This document shows, piece after piece, positions 23,072-46,227 of a DNA stretch of 64,000 bases (positions within the stretch are counted from its first letter, which is position 1; the number at the start of each line of letters is the position of its first letter). The DNA is from Rhizobium hidalgonense. Lineage in GTDB: Bacteria; Pseudomonadota; Alphaproteobacteria; Rhizobiales; Rhizobiaceae. The stretch covers positions 1 through 64,000 of the forward strand of contig NZ_LODW01000049.1 of NCBI RefSeq assembly GCF_002914525.1. The letters are read 5' to 3'. The notes below the pieces were generated by a model. The model searched no databases and was not told the origin of the DNA. It saw only the letters and a program-made list of their open reading frames with translations. The translations under genes and the position numbers were made by a program.

Positions 23072-23081
23072 GGAGAGACCA

Positions 23082-23441: not shown

Positions 23442-23443
23442 TC

Positions 23444-23803
23444 ATGCGCTACATCTGCCTGATTTATAACAGCGCCGACACGGACGGGACGCTGACGCCT
23501 GACGAAACCGACGACCTTATCAAAGCGCATTTCGCGTTCGACGAGGAGCTACGCTGCGAAGGCATCCTGATTCATTGCGATGCATTGGAAATGCCTGACA
23601 AAGCGACCGTGCTCCGCGTTCGAAACAGCGCGCTGTCGGTCACCGATGGTCCCTATGTCGAGACGAAAGAGCATCTGGCCGGCTTTTACGTCATAGAGGC
23701 ACCTGACATTGCGAAGGCAAAGGAGGTTGCCGGGCGAATCCCTTCCGCGCGTTTCGGTGCGGTAGAACTCCGGCCCGCGCGAACGCTGACCCTGCCGGTT
23801 TGA
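23444..23803 (+). CDS. YCII-related (DGPF) protein 3
   Basis: 119 residues: MRYICLIYNSADTDG start, with VTDGPYVETKEHLAGFYVIEA in place of the DGPF motif (F to Y). It is more diverged than the other two, with an acidic N-terminal loop. GGGAGATAGTC precedes the ATG. Its stop codon lies directly before the sigma factor gene's ribosome binding region, suggesting coupled translation. Confidence 0.9.
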   Translation: MRYICLIYNSADTDGTLTPDETDDLIKAHFAFDEELRCEGILIHCDALEMPDKATVLRVRNSALSVTDGPYVETKEHLAGFYVIEAPDIAKAKEVAGRIPSARFGAVELRPARTLTLPV

Positions 23804-23811
23804 GGTGCGCC

Positions 23812-25983: not shown

Positions 25984-26166
25984 GTAGTAGGCATTCCTCG
26001 CTGGGCGCCGGCTTAGGCATCGGTTCCGGCGCCAGGCCTTTTAGGAGAAATGAAGCCTGCGCACAACGGCGGAGTTGATGGGCGACGGCGGCAACGCCTC
26101 TTCCACACCGGCACGCGGGCGGCAGACCAGTGGCGACGGCGCCTTGCCGGATTGACGTGGAGATCG

Positions 26167-27660
26167 ATGTTGGAGCGGATTACCAGAAACATTACGACCG
26201 CAAGCCTTTTTCTGGCAGTCTATTTCCTGCTCAATATCGTGCTGCGCATCTCCTTGCCGCATACGCTCGATCTCGACGAGGCGGAGCAAGCTTTCTATTC
26301 GCAATATCTGCTTGCCGGCTACGGCCCGCAGCCGCCCTTCTACAACTGGATCCAATATGCCATCGTGTCGGTGACCGGCATATCGATGTGGGTGCTGTCG
26401 GTGCCGAAGAACATTATTCTCTTCGGCTGCTATCTCTTCTACGGGCTTGCTGCCCGCGAGGCGCTGAAGAACCGTTCGCTTGCAGCCGTCGCCATGCTGA
26501 GTCTGATTACGCTGCCGCAGGTGGGGTTGATGGCGCAGCGCGAATTGACCCATACCGTCGCTCTGCTGTTTGCAACCTCGCTCTTCCTCTTCGGTTTTTT
26601 CCGCACACTTCGCCGGCCGACAGTCGGGAGCTATCTCGTCATCGGTATCGCTACCGGCATCGGGCTGATCTCCAAATACAATTTCGCCATCCTGCCATTT
26701 GCCGCCTTCATCGCCGTCCTGCCGGACCGAGAGTGGCGCAACCGTCTGTTCGACTGGCGTCTGCTGCCGGCGATCGCGATCGCCATTCTGATCATTCTGC
26801 CGCACGCGCTCTGGCTGCCCGATAATCTCGCCAGCGCTTCGGGTCCGACACTGGAGCGGATGACCGCCGAGCACGAGGCCGCCGCCGGCCTTCCCCGCAT
26901 CGGACAGGGACTGCTGTCCCTGGTCATCGCGGTGATCGGCTTCGTCGCATTGCCGATCGTCCTGATCGCAGCAGCCTTCCGACGGAATTTCTTTCGTGCG
27001 CTTGCCTCGACCAGTCCGATGATCCGAGTGATCGAGCGGATGATGATCGTCAGCCTGATCGCCTTCGCCGGAGTCGTTGTCTTCGCCGGCGCGAGCGATA
27101 TCCACGAACGCTGGCTCGACCCCTGCCTGCTGGTCCTGCTGATCTATCTGTTCCTGAAGCTGCAAGCCGCAGGCTTCGATCTTTCCGCCGGCCTTGCGCG
27201 CTTCCGCCCCGTCGTGCCGGTGTTCATGGTCGTCATCCTGGCGATCCTTCTGCTGCGGATCGTCGCCATTCAATATATCGGCACTTATACCAGAACGAAC
27301 GTGCCCTTCTCCGGTTACGTGGCCGAACTGACCGCGACCCGCAAGCCGGTTCTGATCGTGGCCGGAACCAAGTTCGTGGCCGGCAACATGAAGCTGGAAT
27401 TCCCCGATGTTCCCGTGGTGATCCCGTTCTTCCCGGGCTCCGGGGTTCCCGAATTTGCGACTGCGAAGGGGCCGGTGCTCGTTATCTGGCGCGGCGAAAC
27501 CGCCGATGACCCGACGATTTCTCCCGGCTTTGCGAATGATCTCGCGAGATCGGGCATTCATCTGCAGGAGTTGAAGACGCTGACGCTGCCCTATCTTTTC
27601 AGTAACGGCAAAAAGAGCTTCTCCATTGGTTATTCCTGGGTTGAAGGCGGCGCGAAATAG
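26167..27660 (+). CDS. GT39/ArnT-like membrane glycosyltransferase (RgtA/B/C type), copy 1
   Basis: 497 residues with about 11 membrane segments. The first periplasmic loop carries the catalytic acidic motif [19 protein letters not shown] followed by [13 protein letters not shown], as in ArnT-type transferases that use polyprenyl-phosphate sugars. Two very similar genes follow, with an RgtE-like donor synthase between them. In R. leguminosarum such a set adds galacturonic acid to the LPS core; which of RgtA, B or C this is cannot be decided. The internal ATG after GGAG is preferred to a 39-residue upstream extension. Confidence 0.87.
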
Positions 27661-27797
27661 CGTTCCGGCAAGTCAGTCGATTGCGGGGAAACCGGCATTG
27701 GCCGCTGGCAACCGACGGACACTTCATGTACTAGCCTTCCGCAAGCGCGGCAGCAGCGATAAGATTGCTCGGCCGTCCGGCCTTTTGGAGATGAAAG

Positions 27798-28814
27798 TTG
27801 CAGACAACGGTAGAGCCCATTCGCGGTACGAATGATCCGGTACAATCGCTCGAGCTGTCGCTGGTCGTGCCCATTTTCAACGAAGAGGAAAGCGTCGGCC
27901 CGCTCGTCGAGCGTGTCGCGGCTGCAATGGCCGCCTATCCCAATCCCTGGGAGCTGATCCTCGTCGACGACGGCAGCACGGATGCGACGCTCGTCAACGC
28001 CCGCAAATTTGTCGGGCGCGAGGGGCTGACGCTCAGGATCGTCGAGTTGCAGCGCAACTTCGGACAGACCGCCGCCATGCAGGCCGGGATCGACACCGCC
28101 CAGGGCCGGCTGATCGCGACGATGGACGGCGACCTGCAGAACGATCCGAAGGACATTCCTTCGATGGTCGCCGAACTGGAACGGCGTGAACTCGACCTCC
28201 TGGTCGGCTGGCGCAAGAACCGCAAGGACGGTCTGTTCCTGCGCAAGATTCCTTCCTGGTGCGCCAACTACCTGATCGGCCGCATCACCGGCGTCAAGCT
28301 GCATGATTACGGCTGCAGCCTCAAGATCTACCGTGCCTCGATCATCAAGCAGGTGAAGCTGATGGGCGAAATGCACCGTTTCATCCCGGCCTGGGTGGCC
28401 GGTGTCGTCCCGAGCTCGCGCATCGGCGAGATGGCGGTCACCCACCATGCCCGCGAGCACGGCGTTTCGAAATACGGTATTTCGCGCACCTTCCGCGTCA
28501 TCCTCGATCTGCTGTCGGTGATGTTCTTCATGCGCTACAAGGCACGGCCCGGCCATTTCTTCGGCTCGCTCGGTCTTGGCCTCGGCGCGGTCGCCCTGCT
28601 GATCCTGCTTTATCTCGGCTTCGACAAGTTCATCATGGGTAATGACATCGGCACGCGCCCGATGCTGATGGTCGGCGTCGTGCTGTTGCTTTCGTCCGTG
28701 CAGATGATCACGACCGGCATCCTGGCGGAGATGATCGCGCGCACCTATTACCGCGACGACGCTTCGCCGAATTATATCGTGCGGCAGATCTTCGACGATC
28801 GCAGCCAAGCCTAA
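27798..28814 (+). CDS. rgtE: Polyprenyl-phosphate sugar synthase, GT2 family (RgtE type)
   Basis: 338 residues. The GT-A domain (about 18-240) has LSLVVPIFNEEESV, LVDDGSTD, the metal motif MDGDLQNDP and LHDYGCSLKIYR. It ends in two membrane helices (about 250-270 and 285-310), the ArnC/DPM1 layout. It should load a sugar onto polyprenyl phosphate on the cytoplasmic side. The setting among three ArnT-like genes matches RgtE, the dodecaprenyl-phosphate galacturonate synthase of R. leguminosarum. The start is TTG with GGAG 7 nt upstream; a nearby ATG is out of frame. The sugar identity is inferred. Confidence 0.87.
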   Translation: MQTTVEPIRGTNDPVQSLELSLVVPIFNEEESVGPLVERVAAAMAAYPNPWELILVDDGSTDATLVNARKFVGREGLTLRIVELQRNFGQTAAMQAGIDTAQGRLIATMDGDLQNDPKDIPSMVAELERRELDLLVGWRKNRKDGLFLRKIPSWCANYLIGRITGVKLHDYGCSLKIYRASIIKQVKLMGEMHRFIPAWVAGVVPSSRIGEMAVTHHAREHGVSKYGISRTFRVILDLLSVMFFMRYKARPGHFFGSLGLGLGAVALLILLYLGFDKFIMGNDIGTRPMLMVGVVLLLSSVQMITTGILAEMIARTYYRDDASPNYIVRQIFDDRSQA

Positions 28815-28823
28815 GCCGTCAGC

Positions 28824-30326
28824 ATGATGCTGGAGCGCGCGACGAGGACGATCAAGACCGCAGGCCTGCTGCTTGCGGCCTATTTCGCGCTCAACATCGT
28901 GCTGCGTATCGCGCTGCCGCATTCGCTGGAGCTCGACGAGGCCGAGCAGTCCTTCTTCTCGCAATATCTGCTGGCCGGCTACGGCCCGCAGCCGCCGTTC
29001 TACAACTGGATGCAATATGCCGTCGTTTCGCTGACGGGCATGTCGATCGGCGCGTTGATCGTTCCGAAGAACATCCTGCTGTTCCTATCCTATCTCTTCT
29101 ATGGCCTTGCCGGACGGCGCGTCCTGAAGGACCAGACGCTGGCCGCCATCGCCATGCTGGCGCTGATCACCCTGCCCCAGGTCTCCTATATGGCCCAGCA
29201 GGATCTGACCCACACGACGGCGCTGCTCTTTGCCAGCGCACTGTTTCTCTACGGCTTCTTCCGCACGCTCGACCGGCCCGAGATGGGCAGTTACCTGCTG
29301 CTCGGGCTTGCAACCGGCATCGGGCTGATCTCGAAGTATAATTTCGCGCTGATGCCTGTCGCCGCCTTGATTGCCATCTTGCCCGATAGCGAATGGCGGC
29401 GCCGAGCGCTCGACTGGCGCTTGTTGGCGGCGATCGCCGTCGCGCTCGTCATCGTCCTGCCGCATGCGATCTGGCTGCGCAACAATCTCGCCTTCGCCTC
29501 CTCCGATACTCTGGTCAAGATGGCCGCCGGCAACGAACCCGCCGGCATGGTGCGAGCCGGCAAAGGACTTCTCGCTTTTCTCGTCGCCATCATCGCCTTT
29601 GCAGCGCTGCCGGTCGCAATCTTCGCCGGCACCTTCCGCCGGGATTTCATCCGTGCGCTTTCGGCCGGAAACCGCTGGACCGGGATGATGGAGCGGATGA
29701 TGCTCGCAAGTCTGGCCGGCATCGCTCTCATCGTGCTCTTCACCGGCTCGACCACGGTGCGTGAGCGCTGGCTCGACCCGTTCCTGCTGGTGCTGCCGAT
29801 CTATCTCCTGGCGAAAATGCAGGCTGCCGGCATCGACCTTTCCGCCGGTCTGCGTCGCCTCCGGCCGTTGCTGCCGGTGCTGATGGCCTGCGTTCTGATC
29901 GCACTCGGCCTGCGTGTCGTCGGCGCCGGGCTGATCGGTACCTATGCCAGGCCGAATGTGCCGATGGCGGGTTTTTCGCGCGAGATGACGAGACAGGGGC
30001 AGCCGGCGCTGGTGATCGCTTCCGACACCTATGTCGGCGGCAACATGCGGCTGCAATTTCCCGATGTGCCCGTGGTGATCCCGGATTTTCCGATACCGGG
30101 CATTCCGGCCTATGACGAGGCCAAGGGGCCGGTGCTGATCGTCTGGCGCGGCAAGAAGACGGCGACGGCTGCGGATGCGGTCATGCCGGATCGGTTCACA
30201 TCGGCGCTGACGGCCGCCGGTATCGCGCCGCGGGAGATCGGCTCGCTGTCGCTTCCCTATTATTTCGGCCGCCAGGGCGACAACTTCGCGCTCGGTTACG
30301 CCTGGGCCCGGCCGGGGATGCGATAG
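28824..30326 (+). CDS. GT39/ArnT-like membrane glycosyltransferase (RgtA/B/C type), copy 2
   Basis: 500 residues, closely related to copy 1 along its whole length. The same loop SLELDEAEQSFFSQYLLAG and [13 protein letters not shown] appears, as does YGFFRTLDRPEMGSYLLLG, and a conserved periplasmic tail [17 protein letters not shown]. It starts 9 bp after the RgtE-like gene and its stop abuts the ATG of copy 3, so all are co-transcribed. Expected to act on the periplasmic face of the inner membrane, transferring the lipid-linked sugar (probably GalA) to LPS core or lipid A. Confidence 0.87.
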   Translation: MMLERATRTIKTAGLLLAAYFALNIVLRIALPHSLELDEAEQSFFSQYLLAGYGPQPPFYNWMQYAVVSLTGMSIGALIVPKNILLFLSYLFYGLAGRRVLKDQTLAAIAMLALITLPQVSYMAQQDLTHTTALLFASALFLYGFFRTLDRPEMGSYLLLGLATGIGLISKYNFALMPVAALIAILPDSEWRRRALDWRLLAAIAVALVIVLPHAIWLRNNLAFASSDTLVKMAAGNEPAGMVRAGKGLLAFLVAIIAFAALPVAIFAGTFRRDFIRALSAGNRWTGMMERMMLASLAGIALIVLFTGSTTVRERWLDPFLLVLPIYLLAKMQAAGIDLSAGLRRLRPLLPVLMACVLIALGLRVVGAGLIGTYARPNVPMAGFSREMTRQGQPALVIASDTYVGGNMRLQFPDVPVVIPDFPIPGIPAYDEAKGPVLIVWRGKKTATAADAVMPDRFTSALTAAGIAPREIGSLSLPYYFGRQGDNFALGYAWARPGMR

Positions 30327-31811
30327 ATGAGCGGGACCAACAATCGCGACATCCGCTGGATTTTCGTCCTGCTGGCCGCGTATTTCACGCTTCAGGTCGG
30401 CGTGCGGCTCGCAACCTCGCATTCGCTCGACCTCGACGAAGCCGAACAGGTCTTCCGCTCGCAGTGGTTGGCGGCCGGCTATGGCCCGCAGCCGCCCTTC
30501 TACAACTGGCTGCAATATGCTGTCTTTCAGTTTGCCGGCGTCTCGCTTGCCGCCCTCTCGGTGGTGAAGAACCTTTTGCTGTTCATCGCCTACCTGCTCT
30601 ACGGCCTGACCGCGCGGCTCATCCTGCGCGACAAGGCGCTGGTGGCGGTCGCCACACTTGGGCTGCTGACGATCCCGCAGATGGCTTTCGAAATGCAGCG
30701 CGACCTGACGCATACGGTCGCCGTGTTCTTCTCGGCCAGCATCTTCTTCTACGGCTTCATCCGCAGCCTGAAGCAGCCGAGCCTTGCCTCCTATCTCATC
30801 GCCGGCATCGGCATCGGCTTCGGCCTGCTGGCCAAATATAATTTCGCGATCCTGCCGGCGGCAGCGCTGATTGCCGCGCTTTCGGATGCGCGCCTGCGGC
30901 CGCGGATCTTCGATTGGCGGCTGGTGCTGACGGCGGCGGTGGCATTCGTCATCACCCTGCCGCATCTCTTCTGGCTGAAGGACAATCTCGATTTCGCCAC
31001 CGCGCGCACGCTGGAGAAGATGACCGCGAGCGGCCATGCCAGCTATCCCGCGCAGGTGGCGATGGGTGTCAGTTCGCTCGCGCTCGCCACCCTCAGCTTT
31101 GCCGGGTTGACAGTGGCGGTCTTCGCCATCGTCTTCGGCAGGAGCCTTCGTCCGGCGCTGACGGTCGGTTCGCAATGGACGCGGTTGCTGGAACGGATGA
31201 TGCTTGTCTTCCTGGTCGGCATTCTGTTTTTGATCGTCTTCGGCGGTGCTGCCGGCATCAAGGATCGCTGGCTGGTGCCGATGCTGTTCCTCCTGCCGCT
31301 CTACTTCTGCCTGAAGATCGAAGCCGCGGGCGTCGCGACAGAGAGGGCGTTCCGGCGTTTCATCGTCATCGTTGCCGTCATCATGATCGGCGTGCCGGCC
31401 GCCCTCTACGGCAGCGTCGCGGCCGCACGCTTCACCGGTCATTATGAACGATTGAACAGGCCCTATGCCACGATGCTGGAGAGCTTGCGCAAACAGGCCG
31501 AGCCGGCGGCAATCCTTGCCGGCGACAGCCTACTTGCCGGCAATCTCAGGCAGGATATTCCCGGCGTGCCGGTCCTCTCGGTGGATTATCCCGGCTTCCA
31601 CCCGGATCTTACCGGCCGGCGCCCACTTCTCCTGGTGTGGCTTCTCCCCAAGGGCGGAAGCGAAGCGCTGCCGCCTGATATGGCGGAGTGGCTGCAGGCC
31701 AATCTCGGCGCATCCGCGCCTGAGGCATTAGTGATTGACGCGCCATATTTCTATCGACGCGGCGACGACCGCTATCGTTTCGGCTATGCCTGGGTCAACC
31801 AGCATCCCTGA
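30327..31811 (+). CDS. GT39/ArnT-like membrane glycosyltransferase (RgtA/B/C type), copy 3
   Basis: 494 residues and the most diverged of the three. The catalytic loop reads [32 protein letters not shown]. The transmembrane region aligns throughout, but the C-terminal periplasmic part differs (LRQDIPGVPVLSVDYPGF). The ATG follows the stop codon of copy 2 without a gap. The divergence in the C-terminal domain suggests a different acceptor position on the LPS. It is the last gene of the cluster. Confidence 0.87.
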   Translation: MSGTNNRDIRWIFVLLAAYFTLQVGVRLATSHSLDLDEAEQVFRSQWLAAGYGPQPPFYNWLQYAVFQFAGVSLAALSVVKNLLLFIAYLLYGLTARLILRDKALVAVATLGLLTIPQMAFEMQRDLTHTVAVFFSASIFFYGFIRSLKQPSLASYLIAGIGIGFGLLAKYNFAILPAAALIAALSDARLRPRIFDWRLVLTAAVAFVITLPHLFWLKDNLDFATARTLEKMTASGHASYPAQVAMGVSSLALATLSFAGLTVAVFAIVFGRSLRPALTVGSQWTRLLERMMLVFLVGILFLIVFGGAAGIKDRWLVPMLFLLPLYFCLKIEAAGVATERAFRRFIVIVAVIMIGVPAALYGSVAAARFTGHYERLNRPYATMLESLRKQAEPAAILAGDSLLAGNLRQDIPGVPVLSVDYPGFHPDLTGRRPLLLVWLLPKGGSEALPPDMAEWLQANLGASAPEALVIDAPYFYRRGDDRYRFGYAWVNQHP

Positions 31812-32384: not shown

Positions 32385-32624
32385 CCTTTGACCTGACGGG
32401 GGATAGGCGACGTTGATTGATCACTCAGGGAGTCACGGGGCAGATGATGCCTACCTTGGATAGTAGGCCTTTTTCACGCTATCGCATTCCGACGAAGACC
32501 GCTTCTGTCGCTTTTTTGTGAGTATATTCTTAAATTCTTGAGTTGTTAGCTTTTTTTCACGATGATTGCCGGCGGACACATCCGAGTCTTGGGCAAGAAT
32601 GTCTGATGGGGGATCATATTGCCA

Positions 32625-33143
32625 ATGTTGCAGATCAGAGCTGGAACGACATGCATCGCGTTTTTGATAGCGACCGGGGCGATTTTAGCTGGTTGCCAGT
32701 CAGCCAGTGATGGTCTGGCTGCTTATGGCGATAGTGCAAAGACCCTCGAGGATGACTCAGCGGTCGCCTTCTATAAGAACGACGAGTTGATAACCACCGG
32801 CAAACTGCAGTTTCAGGAAAAGAACTACGGAAAATCCTACGCCATTTACAAGCGAGCGGTTGACGTTTTTCCGGAAGATCCGGCCGCTTGGCTAGGCTTA
32901 GCAGCCTCCGCCGACATGGTTGCCCGCTTCGATACATCCGACCGCGCCTACCAGCAACTCTCGCGAATGATCGGCAACACCCCGGTCTACTACAACAATA
33001 TTGGATATTCTCACCTATTGCGCGGTGATTTGCGCACTGCCAGACGGTATTTCCTGAAAGCCTATGAGCTTGATCCCGGAAATGAAGTCACAGCCCGTAA
33101 TCTCGAATTGATGAAGAACAGCGTGAAATACGCTCAGCGGTGA
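32625..33143 (+). CDS. TPR lipoprotein, TadD-like
   Basis: 172 residues. A lipoprotein signal peptide ends LIATGAILAGC with the lipobox cysteine at residue 24. The mature part has two to three TPR units (NYGKSYAIYKRAVDVFPEDPAAW; TPVYYNNIGYSHLLRGDLRTARRYFLKAYELDPGN). TadD, the pilotin-like lipoprotein of Tad systems, has this layout. It is convergent to the distal end of the Tad operon and should sit in the outer membrane to help assemble the secretin. A TTG two codons upstream, with a better-spaced GGGGGA, is an alternative start. Confidence 0.8.
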   Translation: MLQIRAGTTCIAFLIATGAILAGCQSASDGLAAYGDSAKTLEDDSAVAFYKNDELITTGKLQFQEKNYGKSYAIYKRAVDVFPEDPAAWLGLAASADMVARFDTSDRAYQQLSRMIGNTPVYYNNIGYSHLLRGDLRTARRYFLKAYELDPGNEVTARNLELMKNSVKYAQR

Positions 33144-33229
33144 TAGGCCTTCAGCGATCTGCGTCGAGATGAGAGTGCCCTTGCGGCGTTGCGAGCATCG
33201 GCGCGGCGCCCTTGGCTGCGTCCAGCAAC

Positions 33230-33333
33230 TGCTTTAAAACATGTCGCCCAAAATTGTGCAGCAGTTTCGCGACAGGACATACGGAAAAACATAAGATCCA
33301 AAGCACCTCACATGAAGCACGTTTGATGCGACG
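33230..33333 (-). repeat. Dispersed intergenic repeat, copy A
   Basis: Read on the minus strand this begins CGTCGCATCAAACGTGCTTC and ends near GGGCGACATGTTTTAAAGCA. It aligns with the element at 61748-61854 over about 100 bp, sharing the gcgtcgca-caaac-tgcttcatg block and the GGGCGACATG end. It lies between the convergent TadD-like and coiled-coil genes. Copy A looks more decayed. Confidence 0.7.
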
Positions 33334-33355
33334 TTCTTTGGAGGTGACGTCGTTG

Positions 33356-33916
33356 TTACCGTGCCTTCCGAAGGATGAGTTGGCCTTCCGGCGAGAGTGT
33401 TCGTTCGTAACGCGGCAGGTCATTGACCGCAATGCCCCCGGCGGCCATCGACGCAAGACTGCTATCCGGAGTTAGAGTTTCCGCCGGCGCGGCACGGGGT
33501 GCGAAAAATTGTGCCGGTTCCTTGCCGGGGGCGCTCAGGACCAGAGCCGAACCCATGCGTAGACCGCTCGTGTCGTCGCGCCGTTCGCTCACCACAGCCT
33601 TTTGCAGCTCATCCATCTGCTGGCGAATCACTGCGACGTCGTCGGCCTTGGCATTGTCGTCCATCTTGCCCGACTGCTTTTCGATCTGTCCTTTCAGGCC
33701 ATCGATGGACCTTTTCATCGCGGCGATGGTCTCGCGGCTCTCGCGAACATCCGCCGAGTTTTTAGCGGTATAGATGAGAACGCCGGCATTCACAGGCAAG
33801 AGCATCAGGAGCAAACCGACGAGCAGCGGGCTTTTTGAGCCCCTCTGCTCTACTGTTCGCAAATTGCTCGGTTTTGGGCGTTCTGCTTCGACCTCGATGC
33901 TCGGAATGCTGGTCAT
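33356..33916 (-). CDS. Membrane-anchored coiled-coil protein at the end of the Tad operon
   Basis: 186 residues. A short cytosolic lead is followed by one membrane helix (about 30-50, LLVGLLLMLLPVNAGVLIYT), then a predicted coiled coil (about 57-112, rich in A/L/I heptads such as AAMKRSIDGLKGQIEKQSG) and a Pro/Ala-rich periplasmic tail. No known family is recognised. GGGGGAGTAAACGA precedes the ATG. It starts 61 bp after the AAA ATPase gene and is probably the last gene of the Tad transcript. It may connect the pilus machine to the envelope, but this is conjecture. Confidence 0.72.
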   Translation of the reverse strand: MTSIPSIEVEAERPKPSNLRTVEQRGSKSPLLVGLLLMLLPVNAGVLIYTAKNSADVRESRETIAAMKRSIDGLKGQIEKQSGKMDDNAKADDVAVIRQQMDELQKAVVSERRDDTSGLRMGSALVLSAPGKEPAQFFAPRAAPAETLTPDSSLASMAAGGIAVNDLPRYERTLSPEGQLILRKAR

Positions 33917-33977
33917 TCGTTTACTCCCCCGTGAGTCATCAAATCTGCGTGGGCCGTGATCGGCGCCAAGCCCGCAA

Positions 33978-35282
33978 TCATTCGGTTGTAAATACACCTT
34001 CCCATGCCCGCTCGAGCATGTCGAGCGATGCGTTTCTAGCTATGCCGTTGAAATCGCAGTAAGAACCGACGAAATCCAAAAGATATTTCGGATGATAGCA
34101 AGATGCCGGCATATCGCCGTCATACTTGCGATCGTAGAACAGGTTCAGGTCTGGATCGCAGACAACCAATCCGTTGCCGCTGGCATAGGATTTGAAGATC
34201 CTGATATATTCGTCGCGCGACGGCGTGTTCACAAAGATCTTGTATTTGAGGCGCCGCAAGCCCGCCTCGTCGGAAAGGTCCTTCGGGGCGATATTGGTCG
34301 AAAATACCACAAGCTCGTCAAAGGGAACCTTGAACTTCTTGCCGGTGTGCAGCGTCAGGAAGTCATATCCGCGCTCGAGCGGCACAATCCAGCGATTGAT
34401 CAGCGCCTGCGGCGCCACCTGTTGGCGCCCAAAGTCGTCGATGATGAAAACGCCGCCTGATGCCTTCAAGTGGATGGGCGCTTCATAGACATTTGGTCCT
34501 CCGTTGAAGGTGAGATCGAGTTGATCGAGGGTCAATTCGCCGCCCGTCTTGATCACCGGACGGCGGCATTCGATCCATCGTCGATCCGCTTTCGGATGGG
34601 ATTCTGTCTCGCCCTCCGATACGGGATGATGCACGGCTTCGTCATAGAAACTGATGACATGAGCGCCGACCTCGATGGCATAGGGCACCCAGATTGTTTG
34701 ACGAAACAGCTGCGACGTCCGCTCGGCGATGCTCGTCTTTCCGTTTCCGGGTGGTCCGTAAAGCAGGATAGAGCGACCGGAGTTGATGGCCGGGCCGAGC
34801 TTTTCGACCAAGGTGTGCGAGAGCACCAGCCCGGCAAGGCTGTCGGTCAGCCGCTCCGGGGTCACGCGTTCGTCGTGGATGGACTGCAAACCGATTTGCC
34901 GGCAGAACGCGTCCAGCGACACCGGCGCCGGGCCGACATATTGGCTTTGACGCGACGCGGCGTGGGCATATTCGAGCCCCTTCATTGAAAGTGCATACCG
35001 AATATCGGATCTCACATCCTCACCAGCCAGGCCGCGAGCCTCGAGGTAAGCGAGTTTCACGAGTTCCTTGATCAGGATATTGACGATCACTTTCGGCAGT
35101 TTCATGCGGTCAGCCAGATGAGATGCCGTGGTCGTATCCTGCTCGGCCGCACATTTTGACGCCAGCCGAAGCAGGAACGACGGATCCAGTCCGGCTTGTT
35201 CCAGGCTTGCCGGTGCCATCGGCATGCGCGGATCGAGAGGAATGATGGCATCGTTACGATCCTGTTCGAGCGAATACTGCAT
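33978..35282 (-). CDS. AAA-family ATPase encoded in the Tad operon
   Basis: 434 residues. An N-terminal helical, winged-helix-like region (about 25-120) includes TTASHLADRMKLPKVIVNIL. The AAA core has Walker A GPPGNGKT at 176-183, Walker B VFIIDDFG at 278-285, sensor-1 FSTN at 327-330 and a basic LRRLKYK at 342-348. It is not a TadA/PilT-type secretion ATPase and not a standard Tad gene, yet it begins 15 bp after tadC with GAGGTCGT as ribosome binding site. A regulatory or remodelling role for the pilus is inferred from context only. Confidence 0.82.
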   Translation of the reverse strand: MQYSLEQDRNDAIIPLDPRMPMAPASLEQAGLDPSFLLRLASKCAAEQDTTTASHLADRMKLPKVIVNILIKELVKLAYLEARGLAGEDVRSDIRYALSMKGLEYAHAASRQSQYVGPAPVSLDAFCRQIGLQSIHDERVTPERLTDSLAGLVLSHTLVEKLGPAINSGRSILLYGPPGNGKTSIAERTSQLFRQTIWVPYAIEVGAHVISFYDEAVHHPVSEGETESHPKADRRWIECRRPVIKTGGELTLDQLDLTFNGGPNVYEAPIHLKASGGVFIIDDFGRQQVAPQALINRWIVPLERGYDFLTLHTGKKFKVPFDELVVFSTNIAPKDLSDEAGLRRLKYKIFVNTPSRDEYIRIFKSYASGNGLVVCDPDLNLFYDRKYDGDMPASCYHPKYLLDFVGSYCDFNGIARNASLDMLERAWEGVFTTE

Positions 35283-35297
35283 ACGACCTCGCTTGGC

Positions 35298-36242
35298 TCA
35301 ACCGCCGGGGTTCATGCTGAGAAGAAGACTGATGACACGGATAACAACGGGAACGAGAACAATGATGAGGCTTACCGGAAAAAGGAACGCGCCGAGCGGC
35401 AGCAGCATCTTGACCGGCAGGGCATTTGCCTTTTCCTCGGCGCGAATAATGCGGAGATCGCGCATTTCCTTGCAGTAGACCCGCAACGTCTGCGTTACAC
35501 TGGTCCCAAGCTCCTCCGATTGGCGGAACAGAACGGATAGGGCCCGGGCTTCGTCAATCCTCAGGCGGACGGCAAGGTTCGCGAGCGCCTCGCGCAAACG
35601 CCGGCCACCTCGCACTTCCAGCATCATGATCGAGAGGTGCAGGCCGAAGTCCTGCCGCTTGTCGACGAATTCCCGGGCAACTCGGTTCGCCGCTGCCTCG
35701 ATGCTCATGCCCGCATCGAGGCAGACGATCAGCATATCCATAAAATCGGGAAAAAGGCGGCGGTACTCCCTCTCTTTGGCGGCGCCACGCCGGTCGATAT
35801 AGATGTTGACCAGAATGAAGGTTACGCCCGCAGCAAACATGGCAACAACCAGCGTAACCACCCGTGACATGTCCGGCACGGCCCAATTGAGAGCCCAGAC
35901 CGCCGCGACCAGCACGCTGATACAGACCAGCGCACGAACCACCTGGAAGGTGGTCACGGCGCCGGCGGCGAAATAGCCCGCCCGAATCAGCCGGTTCTGG
36001 GTAGAATTCACATTGGTGTCACGCCGCGTAATCTCGAAATAGCGACGGATCAGGCGGTTTTCCGCCTCACCGAGATCGGCAATCGTCGTATCGCCAAGGT
36101 GGAACTCCTCGCCTGTTGCCGCCGAGCTCTTTGAGACCCGAACCGAGACCTCGCGCCGTCGAAAATACAATTCCGACGCTGTTGCAGAGAATATCAGCAC
36201 TGCAAAGAAGACGATGAGGTAAATTCCATACTCACTCGACAT
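35298..36242 (-). CDS. tadC: Tad pilus inner-membrane platform protein TadC
   Basis: 314 residues with a type II secretion F-domain (about 160-285, PDFMDMLIVCLDAGMSIEAAANRVA and EELGTSVTQTLRVYCKEMR) and three to four membrane helices. With TadB it forms the inner-membrane platform on which the TadA ATPase drives pilus polymerisation. The ATG after GAGGCGGTC is chosen; the longer form overlaps tadB. It begins 7 bp after the tadB stop. Confidence 0.94.
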   Translation of the reverse strand: MSSEYGIYLIVFFAVLIFSATASELYFRRREVSVRVSKSSAATGEEFHLGDTTIADLGEAENRLIRRYFEITRRDTNVNSTQNRLIRAGYFAAGAVTTFQVVRALVCISVLVAAVWALNWAVPDMSRVVTLVVAMFAAGVTFILVNIYIDRRGAAKEREYRRLFPDFMDMLIVCLDAGMSIEAAANRVAREFVDKRQDFGLHLSIMMLEVRGGRRLREALANLAVRLRIDEARALSVLFRQSEELGTSVTQTLRVYCKEMRDLRIIRAEEKANALPVKMLLPLGAFLFPVSLIIVLVPVVIRVISLLLSMNPGG

Positions 36243-36249
36243 GACCGCC

Positions 36250-37203
36250 TCAGTACTCGAAGTTGACCATCTTGTAGAGAATGACATTCCCGATCGCCAT
36301 GACGGCCAGCAGCACGGTCACGACGATGGCTCCGTGGCCGCTCTCCCAGACGGGATCGAAGTAGGTCGGCGACAACGCCTTGATCATCGCGTAGAGCAGA
36401 AACGGATACATTGACATGACGATCGCCGTAATGCGTCCTTCCGAGGAAATCGCCCTGACCTTTGCCTTCAGTAGCATGCGGTCTCGCAGCGTCTTCGAAA
36501 GGTTCTGCAAGATCTCAACGAGGTTTCCGCCGGTTCCCGCCTGTACGCTCAGCGATATCGCAAGCAGGTTCAGATCCTCGACGCCGACCCGGTCCGCCAA
36601 GTTCACCAGGGCGTCGTCCAGTGTCACGCCGTAAGTGAGTTCATCCGAGAGCAGTCCGAACTCGGTGCCGATCGGATCGGGCATTTCGCGCGCCACCAAA
36701 GAAATCGCCGCCGGCAGCGGATGGCCGGCGGCCAGGCTGCGATTGGCGACATCGAGCGCTTCAGGAAGCTTCAGTTCGAATTTCCTCATGCGGCGCGCCC
36801 GGGCGCGCCAGACGACGAGCGCGGGGATGAGGAGGCAAATCAGCAGAAAGACGGGGACTCTAAACAGAGTGCTCGGCAGGAGGATCTGGACGACCAGCCA
36901 TATCGAAAGAGCGCCCGCGATCGCGTAGAGAGCAAATCGTCTGGCATCGAACTTGATTCCCGACTGGGCGTAAAACAGCCGCAACCGCTGAATCATTGGG
37001 GTTTGCCGCCACCTGCCACCGGCCCCGCGCTCCTTGAGCATATCGCTATAGGTCTTACGATGATCATCGCTGACCTCGAGCAAGCTCAGCCGATGGTTCA
37101 CCGCGCGGTGGCGTTCGGATGTCTTGAAGTAGCCGCGCATGACCGCTTCGACAGCAACAAGGGCGGCGGTGAAAACGGCCGCGTAAAGGAGAAGCAGGAT
37201 CAT
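36250..37203 (-). CDS. tadB: Tad pilus inner-membrane platform protein TadB
   Basis: 317 residues, an F-domain paralogue of TadC. The N-terminal helix runs about 2-22, a membrane pair about 88-130, the cytosolic F-domain carries LPEALDVANRSLAAGHPLPAAI and LLAISLSVQAGTGGNLVEIL, and a C-terminal helix closes it. Its ATG overlaps the tadA stop codon in an ATGA arrangement, so translation is coupled to the ATPase. Confidence 0.94.
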   Translation of the reverse strand: MILLLLYAAVFTAALVAVEAVMRGYFKTSERHRAVNHRLSLLEVSDDHRKTYSDMLKERGAGGRWRQTPMIQRLRLFYAQSGIKFDARRFALYAIAGALSIWLVVQILLPSTLFRVPVFLLICLLIPALVVWRARARRMRKFELKLPEALDVANRSLAAGHPLPAAISLVAREMPDPIGTEFGLLSDELTYGVTLDDALVNLADRVGVEDLNLLAISLSVQAGTGGNLVEILQNLSKTLRDRMLLKAKVRAISSEGRITAIVMSMYPFLLYAMIKALSPTYFDPVWESGHGAIVVTVLLAVMAIGNVILYKMVNFEY

Positions 37204-38645
37204 TGGACAGGTCCCGTCTGCAGCGGTTTACCGGGATCAAAAATCGTCACGGGGATCTCGATCCCGAGTTCGGCAAATTCCTCGACGAACCGCGGCCGAA
37301 TGCCGGTGGCGCGGAATTCTCCATGGATTCGTCCGCCTTCATCGGTGCCGAGTTTCTTAAATTTCATAATCTCCTGCATCTGCACAACTTCGCCCTCCAT
37401 GCCGGTGATCTCGGAAATCGAGACGACTTTGCGGGTACCGTCGCTCAGGCGCTGGACCTGCACGATCATGGTGATGGCGGAGGAGATCTGCGAGCGAATG
37501 CTCATCTGCGACATCGGCATCCCGGCCATGCCGACCATCTGCTCAAGCCGACCGACGGCATCGCGCGGCGTATTGGCGTGAATGGTCGTCATCGATCCCT
37601 CGTGACCGGTATTCATCGCCTGCAGCATGTCGAACGCTTCGTCGCCGCGAACTTCGCCGACGATGATACGATCGGGACGCATGCGCAGGGCGTTTTTCAA
37701 AAGTTCGCGTTGACGGATCTCGTTGCGTCCGTCGAGCGTCGGCGGTCGGGTTTCCAAACGCCCGACATGCGGCTGCTGCAGTTGAAGTTCGGCTGCATCC
37801 TCGATGGTGATCAGGCGCTCCCTTGGAGAAATCTGCGACGAGAGAGCGTTGAGCAAGGTGGTCTTGCCAGAACCGGTGCCGCCTGAAATGACCATGGACA
37901 CCTTGCCCTTGACCGCGGCGCTGAGAAGGATGCGCATCGCATCGGCCATAGCGCCATATTGCACGAGGCGCTCCATCGTCAGCGGCTTGCGCGTGAATTT
38001 GCGAATGGAAACGAGCGGTCCATCGACCGAGATCGGCCTGATGGCGACGTTGACGCGCGAGCCATCCTTGAGGCGAGCGTCGACCATCGGCGTCGACTCG
38101 TCGACACGGCGGCCAACCGCCGAGACGATCTTGTTAATCACCCGAAGGAGATGATCCTCGTCTTTGAACCGCACGGCGGTGCTCTCGAGCTTGCCGCTCC
38201 GCTCGACATAGACGCTATTGTAACCGTTGATGAGAATATCTGCGATCGTGTCGTCGGCCAGCAGCGGCTCGATCGGTCCGAGCCCCAGCATCTCGTCGGT
38301 GATATCGCGGATCAGATCATTGATTTCCTTGGCATTCAGCGGAAAATTGTTGGTCCGGATATAGTCCTTGACCAATGGCCGGATCTCGGTGGCGATCTCC
38401 TCGTTGTCGAGTGTGTCGAGGATCCCGAGATTGATGCGATCGAGCAGGTAGCGGTGGAGATTGACCCGCTCGGAAACCATGTCCGGCCCGAGCGAAGCCT
38501 CTTCGTCACTCGCCGCGGCGCTGTCGGAGGCCGGTTGGGCAGGCATGGCCTGAACCGCGCCAAGCAAAGACAGTTCGGCCGTCTCCGGATGTTCCCGCTT
38601 TTCCGGCTCCTGCCTGTAGAAACGCCCCATGATACCGCTCGCCAT
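37200..38645 (-). CDS. tadA: Tad pilus assembly ATPase TadA/CpaF
   Basis: 481 residues of the VirB11/PilT secretion-ATPase superfamily. After an N-terminal variable lead, the family N-domain (about 60-190) has [27 protein letters not shown] (in part). Walker A GGTGSGKT is at 255-262, then the aspartate box [11 protein letters not shown], the Walker B region [14 protein letters not shown] and the histidine box [12 protein letters not shown]. It powers Flp pilin polymerisation. The ATG 8 nt after AGGAG is chosen; a GTG three codons upstream is possible. Confidence 0.95.
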
Positions 38646-38664
38646 GCGCCCCACTCCTGAACTC

Positions 38665-39225
38665 TTATTTTACAATGACCGTGGAACCGACCTTCACCCT
38701 CTCATAGAGATCGATGACGTCGGCATTGCTCATGCGAAAACAGCCCGATGACGCAAAACCGCCGACCGTCGACTGCTCGTTCGTTCCATGAATGCGGTAG
38801 AGCGTGTCGGCCCCACCCTTGTAGAGATAGATCCCGCGAGCACCCAAAGGATTGAGCGGCCCGGCAGGCACCAGGTCCGGAAGCCCGGCTGCGCGTGCCT
38901 TCATCTCGGCAGGCGGGCGCCAGTCGGGCCATTCTGCCTTGCGTCCAACCTTGACGGTACCGCTCCAGCGAAACCCGTCTCGCCCGACGCCGATTTTGTA
39001 GCGGATCGCGCGCCCTTCGGAGATGACGAGATCCAGCGTACGGTTGCCGCTGACGATGACGATTGTCCCGGCCGCGTAGCTTTTTTCGATCGGCACCACG
39101 GCGCTTGTCGTCGGCCCGAGGCTGCGTGGCACAAGCCCGCTTGCCGCTGCATCTCCGACAGCGGCCAGAATTGCCAAAACGGCAAGGCCGGCACCGGCTG
39201 CGCAGGACCTTATGATCGCCTTCAT
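38665..39225 (-). CDS. L,D-transpeptidase (YkuD) in the Tad operon
   Basis: 186 residues with a signal peptide (about 1-28). The YkuD domain has the catalytic pattern YRIHGTNEQS with H146 and FASSGCFRMSNADV with the nucleophile C162. Such enzymes form 3-3 cross-links in peptidoglycan or attach proteins to it. The start codon overlaps the cpaE stop in ATGA, so it is translationally coupled to a Tad gene, and tadA follows 19 bp later. It may open or brace the wall around the pilus channel; the role is inferred. A lipoprotein paralogue lies at 58289. Confidence 0.92.
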   Translation of the reverse strand: MKAIIRSCAAGAGLAVLAILAAVGDAAASGLVPRSLGPTTSAVVPIEKSYAAGTIVIVSGNRTLDLVISEGRAIRYKIGVGRDGFRWSGTVKVGRKAEWPDWRPPAEMKARAAGLPDLVPAGPLNPLGARGIYLYKGGADTLYRIHGTNEQSTVGGFASSGCFRMSNADVIDLYERVKVGSTVIVK

Positions 39226-40364
39226 CGCACCAGCGCTCCAAGCTTGCCGACCGCGCCGCAGAAGCGCGCCCGGGAATTCACTTGAAATGGCAGCACGCCG
39301 CGGTTGACCGCCTCGCTCACAGTGTCCCAGTCATCCGCAATGACATGCGTCGGGATCTCTTTGAATATCTTTTCCGTCTGTTGCCGGCGCAGGCCGAGGC
39401 CGAAAAGCTTGGCGCGGTATTTGTTGATGACGATGAATATCTGGTCCGCACTGCCCCGCAGACGTACCAGATTGGCAAACAGATCCTTGGCTTGAGAAAG
39501 CGCAGGCACGGTCATTTCGGTGACGATGCAGACGCTGTTGACCGAAGTGAGCACCTCGTATTTCCACGGCGTGTCATAATAGGGAACGTCGATGATCGTG
39601 TGATCGCTCTCGAAGGCGGCGACGTCGAGCATGCGCAGCACGAGTTCACGGCCCTTCGGCGCCAGAAGCACCGATGGCTGCTTGAAGGACAGCAGCGAAA
39701 AGCCGCCCGAATGCCGCTTTCTGACCAGATCGATGAATTCCAGATCGACCCGGGAAGGATTGGCGATGACCGGTTTCAAGTCGTAGTCGTTGACGAGGTT
39801 GAGATAATAGCCAAGCGCCCCGGAGCAGAAATCCGTGTCGAACAAGTCGATTCGCGGCGTGGAATTCTTGGTCGGCTGGGCCAGCACATGCGCAAGCGAC
39901 GAGGCGATCACGCTGGCGCCCGCGCCGCCGACGGCCGAGACCACGGCATGCACCCGGCTGTCGCTCGCCCCGGTGCCCGGCGCATGGGTCGAAATCATGT
40001 CGATCAGTGCGCGGCGCTCGAGCGGCTTTTTCAGCCAGTCTTTGCCGTTCAGGCGGAAGAGCAGCCGCAGCATGTCGTCCGGCAGGTCTTCGGAAACGAC
40101 GACGAGCGGAATGTCGCGAAAGCTGGTGCGAAAGGTAAAGAGTTCCGGCTGCTGCAGCAATGTCCCGTTGTCGACGTCGAGAACGATCAGGTCGAACTGC
40201 GTCGGATCGAACCGGCCTTTTTCTCCGAGCGCCTTCAGCGCGAGATGGCGAACATCGTACCGCGAAAGCGACCCGAACGTATCGAGCATGAAGCTCGCTG
40301 CAGCCGCGTCGTCGGAGAGGACTAGGATCTTGGTAGATGCGGCAATGTTCATGTGCGCTGTCAT
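39222..40364 (-). CDS. cpaE: Tad pilus localisation protein CpaE/TadZ
   Basis: 380 residues. An N-terminal receiver-like domain (about 11-125, ILVLSDD and LIVLDVDNG) precedes a ParA/MinD-type domain. The P-loop is degenerate: VVSAVGGAGASVIASSLAH (about 141-159) lacks the usual lysines of KGGxGKT. This is a known trend in CpaE/TadZ proteins and suggests weak or absent ATP hydrolysis. These proteins place the pilus machine at a cell pole. AGGAAA precedes the ATG; a second ATG four codons in is possible. Confidence 0.9.
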   Translation of the reverse strand: MTAHMNIAASTKILVLSDDAAAASFMLDTFGSLSRYDVRHLALKALGEKGRFDPTQFDLIVLDVDNGTLLQQPELFTFRTSFRDIPLVVVSEDLPDDMLRLLFRLNGKDWLKKPLERRALIDMISTHAPGTGASDSRVHAVVSAVGGAGASVIASSLAHVLAQPTKNSTPRIDLFDTDFCSGALGYYLNLVNDYDLKPVIANPSRVDLEFIDLVRKRHSGGFSLLSFKQPSVLLAPKGRELVLRMLDVAAFESDHTIIDVPYYDTPWKYEVLTSVNSVCIVTEMTVPALSQAKDLFANLVRLRGSADQIFIVINKYRAKLFGLGLRRQQTEKIFKEIPTHVIADDWDTVSEAVNRGVLPFQVNSRARFCGAVGKLGALVR

Positions 40365-40393: not shown

Positions 40394-41017
40394 TCAGCAG
40401 GTGGAGCAGGTCTTCAAATCTTCCGTCGTGATCGTCACGGGATGGGCCGGGATGGTGACGTCGTTCAGCCCCAACAACCCGCCGAGGACAGGCAGATCGA
40501 AGGTTATGTTGCGCACCTCCAGCCGCATCGTCAGCACAGGCCCCTCCGGCCGGCCCCAGTAGCCGAGCCCCGATCGCTGATAGGTGACCATCAGCTTATC
40601 CGGGGTGATGCGCCAATTGAGGTCGCAAATGCCGGGGTGAGGATCGGTTCCCGCGTTGCAAACGCCGTCGCTTCCCCGGACAATCCGGTTCAATGACGCC
40701 GTGCAGTTTGCAAGAGCCGGTCCACAGGTCGAGGATATCGTCGCATTGTTCGGCGCCGCTTTGCCGTTGTTGAGTGGATCGGCGGCATCTGTTGGGAAAA
40801 CGGCATTGAAATTCGTCGTCAGCGGATCGGATACCGCCGCCAAACGGGCTCCATATTGCAGTGCCTTGACCGTCTGATTCCACTGCGACATCGCATAACC
40901 GAACTCGATGAAGGCGGCGAATACCAGCATGACGATCGGAAAGGTCAGCAGTGCTTCGACAAGGCTGACACCACCGCTATCCTGCCAGAACGCCTTGATT
41001 GCCCTAGAGGTCACCAT
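40394..41017 (-). CDS. TadE-family pseudopilin, copy 2
   Basis: 207 residues with a single N-terminal membrane helix. The prepilin-like site is G16/VSLVE with glutamate at +5, followed by ALLTFPIVMLVFAAFIEFGYA. The large periplasmic part has several cysteines, and the C-terminus ends in a CSTC pair. TadE/TadF pseudopilins are processed by the prepilin peptidase and are needed for pilus assembly. It overlaps the start region of the preceding tadE gene by 7 bp, so the two are co-translated. Confidence 0.88.
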   Translation of the reverse strand: MVTSRAIKAFWQDSGGVSLVEALLTFPIVMLVFAAFIEFGYAMSQWNQTVKALQYGARLAAVSDPLTTNFNAVFPTDAADPLNNGKAAPNNATISSTCGPALANCTASLNRIVRGSDGVCNAGTDPHPGICDLNWRITPDKLMVTYQRSGLGYWGRPEGPVLTMRLEVRNITFDLPVLGGLLGLNDVTIPAHPVTITTEDLKTCSTC

Positions 41018-41490
41018 CCGATGTATCTCTCTTCATGGAAGGAACTGATAGTGATGGCACCAATGCCCAGAAAGCCGAACACCGGCGAGGTCTGGTAGAG
41101 ATGAGCAGTGGAAATGGTGATGTCCCCGTCCGCATCCGGCGCAGTGATGGTGATGTCGGCAGCGTTGTTCCAACCGGGCACGCGGGGTTTAGCGTTTGCC
41201 GCAGGTGTTTGCGTTCCGTAAAAGGCGATCGTCTTCGCCGTCGCCTGATTGCACGTCGGCACATAGGTTCCCGACACCGGCCGGCACCGCGAAAGGTAGC
41301 GCCCGGCATCGCGCAAGCCCGCGTCGATCTGCATGCGCTGCCAGAAGATGCTGCCAAACTCGAGTATCCCCGCCGCAAAGATCGTCACAAAGGGGATCGC
41401 GAGCAGCGCTTCGGCAAGCACCGCGCCTTCCTCCCGCCGCAAGAAGCCGAGGCAAAGCCGATGCCGGATAAAATTGCGGAGCGCCATCAT
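41011..41490 (-). CDS. TadE-family pseudopilin, copy 1
   Basis: 159 residues. The basic lead MMALRNFIRHRLCLGFLRRE is followed by a prepilin-like site G22/AVLAE with glutamate at +5, and a hydrophobic helix ALLAIPFVTIFAAGILEFGS. The periplasmic domain follows. Its ATG overlaps the tadG stop codon. Together with the other tadE gene it should form minor pseudopilins of the pilus. Confidence 0.88.
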   Translation of the reverse strand: MMALRNFIRHRLCLGFLRREEGAVLAEALLAIPFVTIFAAGILEFGSIFWQRMQIDAGLRDAGRYLSRCRPVSGTYVPTCNQATAKTIAFYGTQTPAANAKPRVPGWNNAADITITAPDADGDITISTAHLYQTSPVFGFLGIGAITISSFHEERYIGW

Positions 41491-43088: not shown

Positions 43089-43181
43089 TGGCCTACCCCC
43101 CATCACGGCTTCTGCCGTGACGACCCTTTTTCGTGCATTTTCACTTCCGGCGCGCTGCCGCCGTTCATGCCTTTCGAACAG

Positions 43182-43490
43182 CTACTGGCTGACGCTGGCC
43201 CCATTGGAGGCACCGTTGGCCTCCATGGCCGGCGACGGCTGAATGACCCCCACCCCGCCATTCTGGTACTCGGTCATCACCCTGCGGACCACCTTGCCGT
43301 CGCTTGCGATACGGGTTCGCTGGGCTTCCGGCGGGAACGGGTCCTCGGTATGGATGGCCTTGTTTGCTTCCATGGCGTTCCCCGCCCCGAAGGTGATCGT
43401 GTCGCGATGGTTCATGTAGTCGGCGCAGCCGGAAACCAGGCCGGCGGCCGCAAGGACGAGAAGGATGCGCTTAGCGTTTTGTAGCAACAA
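43182..43490 (-). CDS. Small lipoprotein in the Tad operon
   Basis: 102 residues with lipobox LVSGC (cysteine 22) after a hydrophobic signal. The mature part reads ADYMNHRDTITFGAGNAMEANKAIHTEDPFPP, then a basic stretch and a Ser/Gly-rich tail. It overlaps the end of cpaC by 20 bp, at the position where CpaD, a larger lipoprotein, sits in other Tad loci. It is too short for a CpaD and may replace it as a secretin partner. The HRDT-GAGNAxxxNKA motif recurs in other Tad clusters as far as I recall. Confidence 0.75.
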   Translation of the reverse strand: MLLQNAKRILLVLAAAGLVSGCADYMNHRDTITFGAGNAMEANKAIHTEDPFPPEAQRTRIASDGKVVRRVMTEYQNGGVGVIQPSPAMEANGASNGASVSQ

Positions 43491-46029: not shown

Positions 46030-46227
46030 TCAGGCTGCTGGAGCGGTGAGGTTGGCCGTAAACCAGCCTGCCCAGCCGTTCCAAACGGTAGCCAGATTGG
46101 TGCCGGCCAATGTCACCGCCGTGATCACGCCGCCGACCAGCAAGGCAAGCAGAATGAGGTATTCGGTAAGTGCGACGCCGTCTTCTTCCCGCGCGAAAGC
46201 GCGTACGCAGTTTACAAATGCTTTCAT
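46030..46227 (-). CDS. flp: Flp-family type IVb pilin
   Basis: 65 residues. The basic leader MKAFVNCVRAFAREEDG is followed by the cleavage site G17/V18 and the mature VALTEYLILLALLVGGVITA. The glutamate at +5 and adjacent tyrosine are the Flp signature. Cleavage by the prepilin peptidase and polymerisation would yield the pilus fibre. It is the first gene of the Tad operon; a CTTACCTGGGAGGTAATTCTC-type purine-rich site precedes the ATG. Only one pilin gene is seen. Confidence 0.95.
   Translation of the reverse strand: MKAFVNCVRAFAREEDGVALTEYLILLALLVGGVITAVTLAGTNLATVWNGWAGWFTANLTAPAA

Follow-up and report, generated by a model that had tools for sequence, protein, structure and literature searches.

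A branch-specific AAA+ ATPase as a candidate accessory component of Tad pilus systems in rhizobia and beyond

The window analysed here, a 64,000-nucleotide stretch of Rhizobium hidalgonense DNA (contig NZ_LODW01000049.1, positions 1 to 64,000), contained a Tad (type IVc pilus) cluster occupying the minus strand between a Flp-type pilin gene (46030-46227) and position 33356. The last two genes of the Tad operon, directly after tadC, encoded an AAA+ ATPase and a single-pass membrane protein with a coiled coil. A reading made earlier from the sequence alone (the sequence-only reading) had pointed out that neither is a standard Tad component, and this was borne out. Following the pilin gene, the order on the minus strand was cpaB, cpaC, a lipoprotein-like gene, a TadG-like gene, two TadE-type genes, a cpaE-like gene, a YkuD gene, cpaF, tadB, tadC, the ATPase gene and the coiled-coil gene. 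The annotated gene order on plasmid p42e of Rhizobium etli CFN 42 was identical, with the ATPase annotated as 'ATPase AAA' (RHE_RS25680) and the coiled-coil protein as 'hypothetical protein' (RHE_RS25685). The features of the cluster were:

33978-35282, minus strand: AAA+ ATPase, 434 aa
33356-33916, minus strand: single-pass coiled-coil membrane protein, 186 aa, ATG start at 33916
35298-36287, minus strand: tadC/cpaH, inner-membrane platform (PF00482)
36250-37203, minus strand: tadB/cpaG, inner-membrane platform (PF00482, weak TadB_TadC_N)
37200-38654, minus strand: cpaF/tadA, Tad motor ATPase (PF00437, 1.4e-61)
38665-39225, minus strand: YkuD L,D-transpeptidase, within the Tad operon
39222-40364, minus strand: cpaE/tadZ-like, weak matches only, named from position and the R. 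etli ortholog
40394-41017, minus strand: TadE/TadF-type pseudopilin, product name of the R. etli ortholog
41011-41490, minus strand: TadE-type pseudopilin, from the R. etli ortholog
41487-43106, minus strand: TadG-like protein (PF13400)
43182-43490, minus strand: small lipoprotein-like protein, operon member, no Pfam match
43471-44958, minus strand: cpaC/rcpA secretin
45014-45931, minus strand: cpaB/rcpC
46030-46227, minus strand: Flp-type pilin, so named from where it lies and from its sequence, without a Pfam match at E<=0.01
46478-47005, plus strand: prepilin peptidase cpaA/tadV, divergent (PF01478)
32619-33143, plus strand: TadD-like TPR protein, convergent with the operon

Gaps of 15 bp between tadC and the ATPase gene and of 61 bp between the ATPase and coiled-coil genes were as first reported and fit a single transcript, and a simple scan of 32900-36400 found no sigma-70-like promoter, a weak test with 1.9 matches expected in shuffles. 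The coiled-coil gene was best started at the ATG at 33916, where the list of open reading frames (ORFs) has a GTG at 33997.

The ATPase matched its initial description as a 434-residue protein with a winged-helix-like front and an AAA core, exact in length, coordinates and all motif positions: Walker A at residues 176-183 (GPPGNGKT), Walker B at 278-285 (VFIIDDFG) and sensor 1 at 327-330 (FSTN). The protein is built from a MarR-like winged helix (~27-112), a conserved linker (115-123), the AAA+ core, an invariant RR at 343-344 and C-terminal helices. Thirty-two family members, 38-84% identical to the window protein, aligned with 34 invariant columns, including G176, G179, G181 and K182, D282 and D283, N330, and R343 and R344, one of which is probably the arginine finger. 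The Walker B aspartates belong to a DDFGRQ motif, and the linker YxGPAPVxL was near-invariant and family-specific in the same alignment. All that marks the AAA+ superfamily was found (both Walker motifs, sensor 1 followed by a conserved arginine, and fold matches), and no Pfam or NCBIfam family matched the ATPase above its cut-off. Sub-cut-off Pfam scores included AAA_5 (18.4 of 22 bits) and bpMoxR (10.7 of 27), and the top NCBIfam rows, the anti-phage ATPase IteA and CdvC, were rejected at 25.5 of 510 and 26.9 of 650 bits. The family was sharply bounded, as genomes matched either at E<=1e-109 or not at 1e-20, and the window's genome held no second copy at E<=0.001.

The AlphaFold model of the ATPase had a mean pLDDT of 88, with front elements modelled as helices at 34-46, 53-60, 64-76 and 100-112 and strands at 80-86 and 93-98. 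Searched against the PDB, a profile of the front region hit winged helices of the MarR type (best E=7.7e-5), and a separate model of the front (mean pLDDT 83) gave Foldseek TMq values of ~0.5-0.6 to MarR-family regulators. Aligned in full with VIA-align, which chiefly tests the AAA core and hardly the front, the model was closest to Pyrococcus furiosus Q8U0N8 (PDB 8p49; Z 17.2, rmsd 5.0, 283 residues), followed by a group at Z 15.8-14.7 comprising ComM, Lon, PspF, MCM, CbbQ, ClpA and NorQ. The residues aligned to Q8U0N8 lie between model residues 63 and 432 (Foldseek E 4.7e-14), although identity to the ATPase is only 11-14%. The predicted protein shows an intact AAA+ enzyme combined with a helix-turn-helix-type docking or binding domain, and it may form a ring.

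Relatives were followed through a contig scan, in which the best 80 of 98 relatives were used. In all 51 rhizobial loci (L001-L006, L009-L052 and L069; 75-95% identity to the window ATPase for those from the contig scan), the ATPase gene followed tadC on the same strand, and in 50 of them the coiled-coil gene came next, the contig of the remaining one (L069) ending 119 bases past the match; such constancy indicates that the arrangement is not due to chance. The coiled-coil protein has one hydrophobic stretch (residues 31-49, mean Kyte-Doolittle hydropathy 2.32) directly followed by a heptad repeat (residues 53-80), in keeping with its first description as a single-pass coiled-coil protein. A first heptad test, with one register over 61 residues, was negative (4978/5000 shuffles as good; 0/50 homologs positive), and the windowed tests, chosen after that failure was seen, were positive, with 4/1000 shuffles as good for a 28-residue window and 6/1000 for a 21-residue window, and the repeat in the top 5% for 49/49 homologs tested. 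Searched against the ORFs of 179 loci, the coiled-coil profile matched the same 50 loci and two further rhizobial ones (L109, L138), the only other match having E=0.29. As no relative was thus found outside rhizobia among these loci while the ATPase spans several phyla, a fixed pair is not supported. The association with Tad first proposed holds for the ATPase, which is tied to Tad far beyond rhizobia, and is not borne out for the pair, the coiled-coil protein having been found only in rhizobial loci. The cluster occurred in 6/37 genomes of the same genus, the window's included. Among 75 plasmid records that bear the ATPase, 57 were from Rhizobium, seven from Sinorhizobium, five from Burkholderia and two from Paraburkholderia, with one each from Ensifer, Salipiger, Pseudorhodobacter and Photobacterium. 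A table in a paper on Sinorhizobium pili (PMC10934763) gives NGR_b10740, NGR_b10850 and NGR_b10860 of Sinorhizobium fredii NGR234 as closest orthologues of TadD-like, lipoprotein and secretin genes, and these would bracket an orthologous cluster.

We evaluated co-occurrence with the Tad motor CpaF in a class census of 289 alphaproteobacterial genomes (ATPase called at E<=1e-20) and a phylum census of 299 genomes, with CpaF called at E<=1e-100 in both. The ATPase was found in 19/289 genomes of the class, all below 1e-140, and in 32/299 of the phylum census, and CpaF in 119/289 and 108/299, respectively. CpaF was present in 30/32 phylum-census genomes with the ATPase versus 78/267 without (p=7e-13), and in the class in 18/19 versus 101/270 (p=6e-7). 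When only genomes with completeness of 90% or more and contamination of 5% or less were counted, the figures were 30/31 versus 78/208 (p=7e-11) and 16/17 versus 88/218 (p=1e-5). The class exception at 1e-100 (G324) has a CpaF cut by the contig, and all 19 ATPase-bearing alphaproteobacterial genomes have CpaF at E<=1e-60. The same threshold recovered CpaF in 33 of 36 genomes that carry the distant loci; of the three misses, G382 has a CpaF fragment at a contig edge, and G352 and G378 have none at 1e-20. Across 70 linked loci the distances of ATPase and CpaF agreed (Mantel r 0.94; 0/999 permutations). The link of the ATPase to Tad is strong.

Neighbourhoods were taken for all ATPase places of both censuses, up to ~10 kb a side. 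The ATPase lay in or beside a Tad cluster in 27/32 phylum-census genomes, namely the window's and one congener, 12/13 of family f48 and 13/13 of those outside the class (family f193 counted apart, with 0/4); in the class census, G227 had a second ATPase copy ~11 kb from cpaF. Two positions recurred, after tadC and directly after the prepilin peptidase. The first, seen in rhizobia, also held for five of the six Gemmatimonadota loci that have tadC, where the open frame starts 310-432 bp further on; in the sixth the frame overlaps. The second was typical outside the class, where the ATPase gene stood directly before cpaB in 13/13 phylum-census genomes (f193 excluded) and the prepilin peptidase just upstream of it was recognised by PF01478 in 12 and by phmmer only in L133. 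The same peptidase-ATPase-cpaB order occurred on a plasmid of Photobacterium sp. DA100, and PF01478 lay just upstream of the ATPase in 9/12 linked loci of family f48. In Burkholderia pyrrocinia, the annotation gives on one strand three flp genes, prepilin peptidase, 'ATP-binding protein', cpaB, secretin, a hypothetical protein, tadG, two tadE-type genes, 'AAA family ATPase' (cpaE-like), cpaF, tadB and tadC. In the contig scan, Tad genes were near the ATPase in Marivita, Sulfitobacter and IMCC20636, and in metagenome-assembled genomes (MAGs) titled Nitrospirae, Gemmatimonadota, Omnitrophota, Burkholderiaceae and some Acidobacteria (L072, L080). None were near it in Desulfuromonas/Pelobacter, in a number of further deltaproteobacterial MAGs, in MAGs of Rhodospirillales, or in the remaining MAGs of Acidobacteria and Blastocatellia (L055, L056, L070, L071), some of these being on short contigs. 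Several of all the loci without Tad (e.g. L095, L105, L055, L071, L083) are short contigs, so that a Tad cluster just past the end may be missed. A search for a neighbourhood shared by the unlinked members returned only lineage-specific neighbours.

Most members without Tad nearby start with an extra domain of ~55 residues, which the window ATPase lacks. A profile of this N-domain, built from 20 mostly unlinked members, matched PilF (2e-31), MshE (1.8e-16) and PilB (2.6e-12 to 4e-10) in the PDB. Homology to MshE/PilB is assigned from this profile search and not from Pfam, whose MshEN family gave no match at E<=0.1 in seven such members scanned. The domain was present in 35/43 loci without Tad nearby versus 3/93 with it (L061, L066, L103), counts that include near-identical rhizobial loci and so are not of independent events. 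On this profile evidence, the domain links the AAA family to the machinery of type IV pili by a route that does not depend on neighbouring genes. Tandem ATPase copies occurred in L110 (G390) and L112 (G417), only one of the two in L112 carrying an MshEN-like domain. In five loci from deltaproteobacterial or Syntrophobacterales MAGs (L073, L075, L077, L078, L084), the MshEN-type ATPase followed two gene families; the L077 member of one was PilZ-like (just under the Pfam cut-off) and the L073 member of the other MinD/ParA-like.

Not every Tad system carries the ATPase. In a tree of 110 CpaF proteins (FastTree, midpoint root, author-chosen sampling), all 70 linked cases fell outside one clade of 15, which held the CpaF of the window genome's second Tad cluster and the CpaFs of eight sampled genomes in which every ATPase is unlinked or distant; G268, which is among these eight, also has a CpaF outside that clade. 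The second Tad cluster of the window's genome (L158, on contig C41) differs from the first and lacks the ATPase. Outside the clade of 15, 25 sampled CpaFs were without a linked ATPase. No ATPase was found in the 63 phylum-census genomes whose best CpaF was weaker than E<=1e-135, a split chosen post hoc; in the class census, unlinked ATPases do occur together with weaker CpaFs. The ATPase is not universally required for Tad; since sister operons and many CpaF-bearing genomes are without it, we regard it as a branch-specific accessory and not as a core Tad part. In this it resembles tadD, rcpB and rcpC, which are Tad-linked and occur in some but not all systems. These three were added as accessory components in a 2019 Tad model (PMC6668835), which, in the portion available, does not name the ATPase. 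The sister operons in question, the six closest sampled (L140-L145), share the lipoprotein gene, and five of the six also have the L,D-transpeptidase, the sixth stretch ending too early. Relatives of this YkuD gene, which in the window (38665-39225, minus strand) is placed between cpaE and cpaF, were also seen in the rhizobial, Marivita/Sulfitobacter (L053, L054) and IMCC20636 (L057) clusters, its retention suggesting a possible peptidoglycan step for this Tad type.

The explanation that we find best, and to which we give about an even chance, is that the ATPase serves the Tad machine as an accessory, a AAA+ remodeller acting on parts in the inner membrane. An ATPase that joins a MarR-type winged helix to a ring-type AAA+ core would remodel or gate the inner-membrane end of the machine, its candidate targets being the TadB/TadC platform, the CpaF motor, or the handling of pilins and pseudopilins at the prepilin peptidase; this site is proposed because the ATPase gene adjoins tadC or the prepilin peptidase. 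AAA+ proteins of the MoxR, NorQ and PspF types work by remodelling a partner protein, which is why remodelling or gating is proposed, and the ATPase might act in the mode of MoxR/NorQ-like or PspF-like proteins. One abstract on MoxR describes chaperone-like roles in the maturation of complexes. In rhizobia, the adjacent single-pass coiled-coil protein could anchor the ATPase at the membrane; in other lineages docking may instead fall to the MshEN/PilB-type N-domain, which is part of the ATPase chain itself. With the MoxR/NorQ/CbbQ group the ATPase shares the AAA+ core fold (NorQ and CbbQ match at Z 14.9-14.3, rmsd 2.7-3.0, over 204-218 residues) and, as proposed here, a remodelling action. It differs in scoring below the Pfam cut-offs, in the winged helix in front, and in having no VWA partner recognised among the neighbours scanned; no VWA domain matched above cut-off in the window genes scanned, which were only part of the operon. 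The NorQ-type structural matches were close to those of Lon, ComM, PspF and MCM.

Several observations weigh against the remodeller explanation. Among phylum-census genomes whose best CpaF reached E<=1e-135, the ATPase was found in only 30/45, and the six closest sister operons and their genomes are without it, so that the question whether the pair always accompanies this Tad subtype, raised in the sequence-only reading, is answered in the negative for the operons sampled. That reading had also held that occurrence mostly away from Tad loci would count against it. This was the pattern in the class census, where only 4/19 ATPase genomes were tightly Tad-linked and most alphaproteobacterial members were unlinked, though with CpaF in every genome at the relaxed threshold; it was not the pattern in the phylum census. 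Genomes with the ATPase and no CpaF at 1e-20 include the two exceptions of the phylum census, G396 (99% complete) and G571 (86% complete), and the MAGs G352 and G378. In family f48, no prepilin peptidase was found directly upstream in L115, L119 and L122. Finally, the co-occurrence and Mantel statistics, the r of 0.94 among them, ignore shared ancestry, and the MarR-like winged helix could indicate DNA binding.

A rather unlikely alternative is that the ATPase is a general chaperone of the inner membrane or envelope, often found near Tad and also serving other type IV filament machines or secretion systems. The unlinked members with the MshEN/PilB-type N-domain, G396 with its eight PF00437 ATPases and no CpaF, and the company of PilZ-like and MinD/ParA-like genes in the five deltaproteobacterial or Syntrophobacterales MAGs all favour such a wider role, whereas the strong genome-level tie to CpaF and the tight linkage within Tad clusters of several phyla argue for Tad. 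More specific, and in our judgement unlikely, is the idea that the family is a regulatory element of Tad motors, in which an AAA+ ring docked on TadB/TadC-CpaF, by the coiled-coil anchor in rhizobia or the PilB-type N-domain elsewhere, would switch the single bifunctional motor between extension and retraction or reset it after surface contact. One major branch of Tad machines would then use ATPases of two classes.

We consider it quite unlikely that the ATPase regulates transcription, whether of attachment genes or of the Tad operon itself, with the winged helix on DNA and the AAA+ core as a switch. The resemblance of the winged helix to MarR-family regulators by both profile and fold, and the presence of PspF/NtrC/FleQ AAA domains among the structural neighbours, are consistent with that role, as is a net charge of +3 over residues 60-79 in the four rhizobial/Phyllobacterium rows tested. 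Over all 32 members, however, this helix region carries almost no net charge (mean +0.9, with values from -3 to +3), and 33 of the 34 invariant residues belong to the linker and the AAA core, leaving G102 as the only one inside the winged helix. In most of the loci seen, the gene stands within the operon or is its last gene, and a pilus-motor N-domain is found on unlinked members. While the AAA core is like that of PspF/NtrC/FleQ (PspF at Z 15.3, rmsd 3.4, 219 residues), the winged helix is N-terminal and MarR-like, and Sigma54_activat had no match at E<=1 in the window ATPase, with sub-cut-off matches in some relatives.

Very unlikely, too, is that the N-domain of unlinked members places a pilus effector ATPase under c-di-GMP control, linked members having lost the domain. 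The domain is homologous to that of MshE, which is a c-di-GMP receptor, and some loci have a PilZ-like neighbour; against this, the window protein lacks such a domain, and of the two 24-residue binding motifs that define the receptor (PMC5013675), both in relaxed form were matched by 0/38 N-domains (motif I by six, motif II by 11). We therefore read the N-domain first as a docking domain. That the ATPase is a second motor retracting the pilus, as the sequence-only reading had suggested, is hardly credible, even though it is a Tad-linked cytosolic ATPase and the switching of Tad direction is described as open in PMC12019362, because it belongs to a different ATPase class (PF00437, the T2SSE family of PilT/VirB11 type, was absent from its 14 Pfam families at E<=1 in the scan that found CpaF), because CpaF alone drives both extension and retraction in Caulobacter according to PMC11300603, and because 101/119 (class) and 78/108 (phylum) Tad-bearing genomes lack it. 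Encoded in the same operon as CpaF/TadA, and sharing through its unlinked members the MshEN/GSPII-type N-domain of PilB, PilF and MshE, the ATPase differs from CpaF/TadA and PilT/PilB in its core.

Beside the Tad cluster, 26050-31811 (plus strand) held a GT2 gene interspersed with three genes for glycosyltransferases of the PMT_2 (ArnT-like) type. GtrA, GT2 and GT87 genes flank one ATPase-bearing Burkholderia Tad cluster, and none flank the R. etli p42e stretch. At 22715-25053 (plus strand) was a gene for a DUF6596-type extracytoplasmic function (ECF) sigma factor, preceded by three similar small ORFs, which we take to resemble YCII-type proteins.

In searches of one open-access library we recognised no published description of the ATPase family; subscription journals, preprints and supplements lay outside this scope, and a printed name is possible. 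Tad pili are widespread machines for attachment and surface sensing, and how one motor works in two directions is an open question. An additional ATPase that is conserved in the Tad clusters of several phyla offers a concrete candidate here and also marks a branch of Tad systems, and we regard it as well placed to be a missing component or regulator of the Tad pilus.

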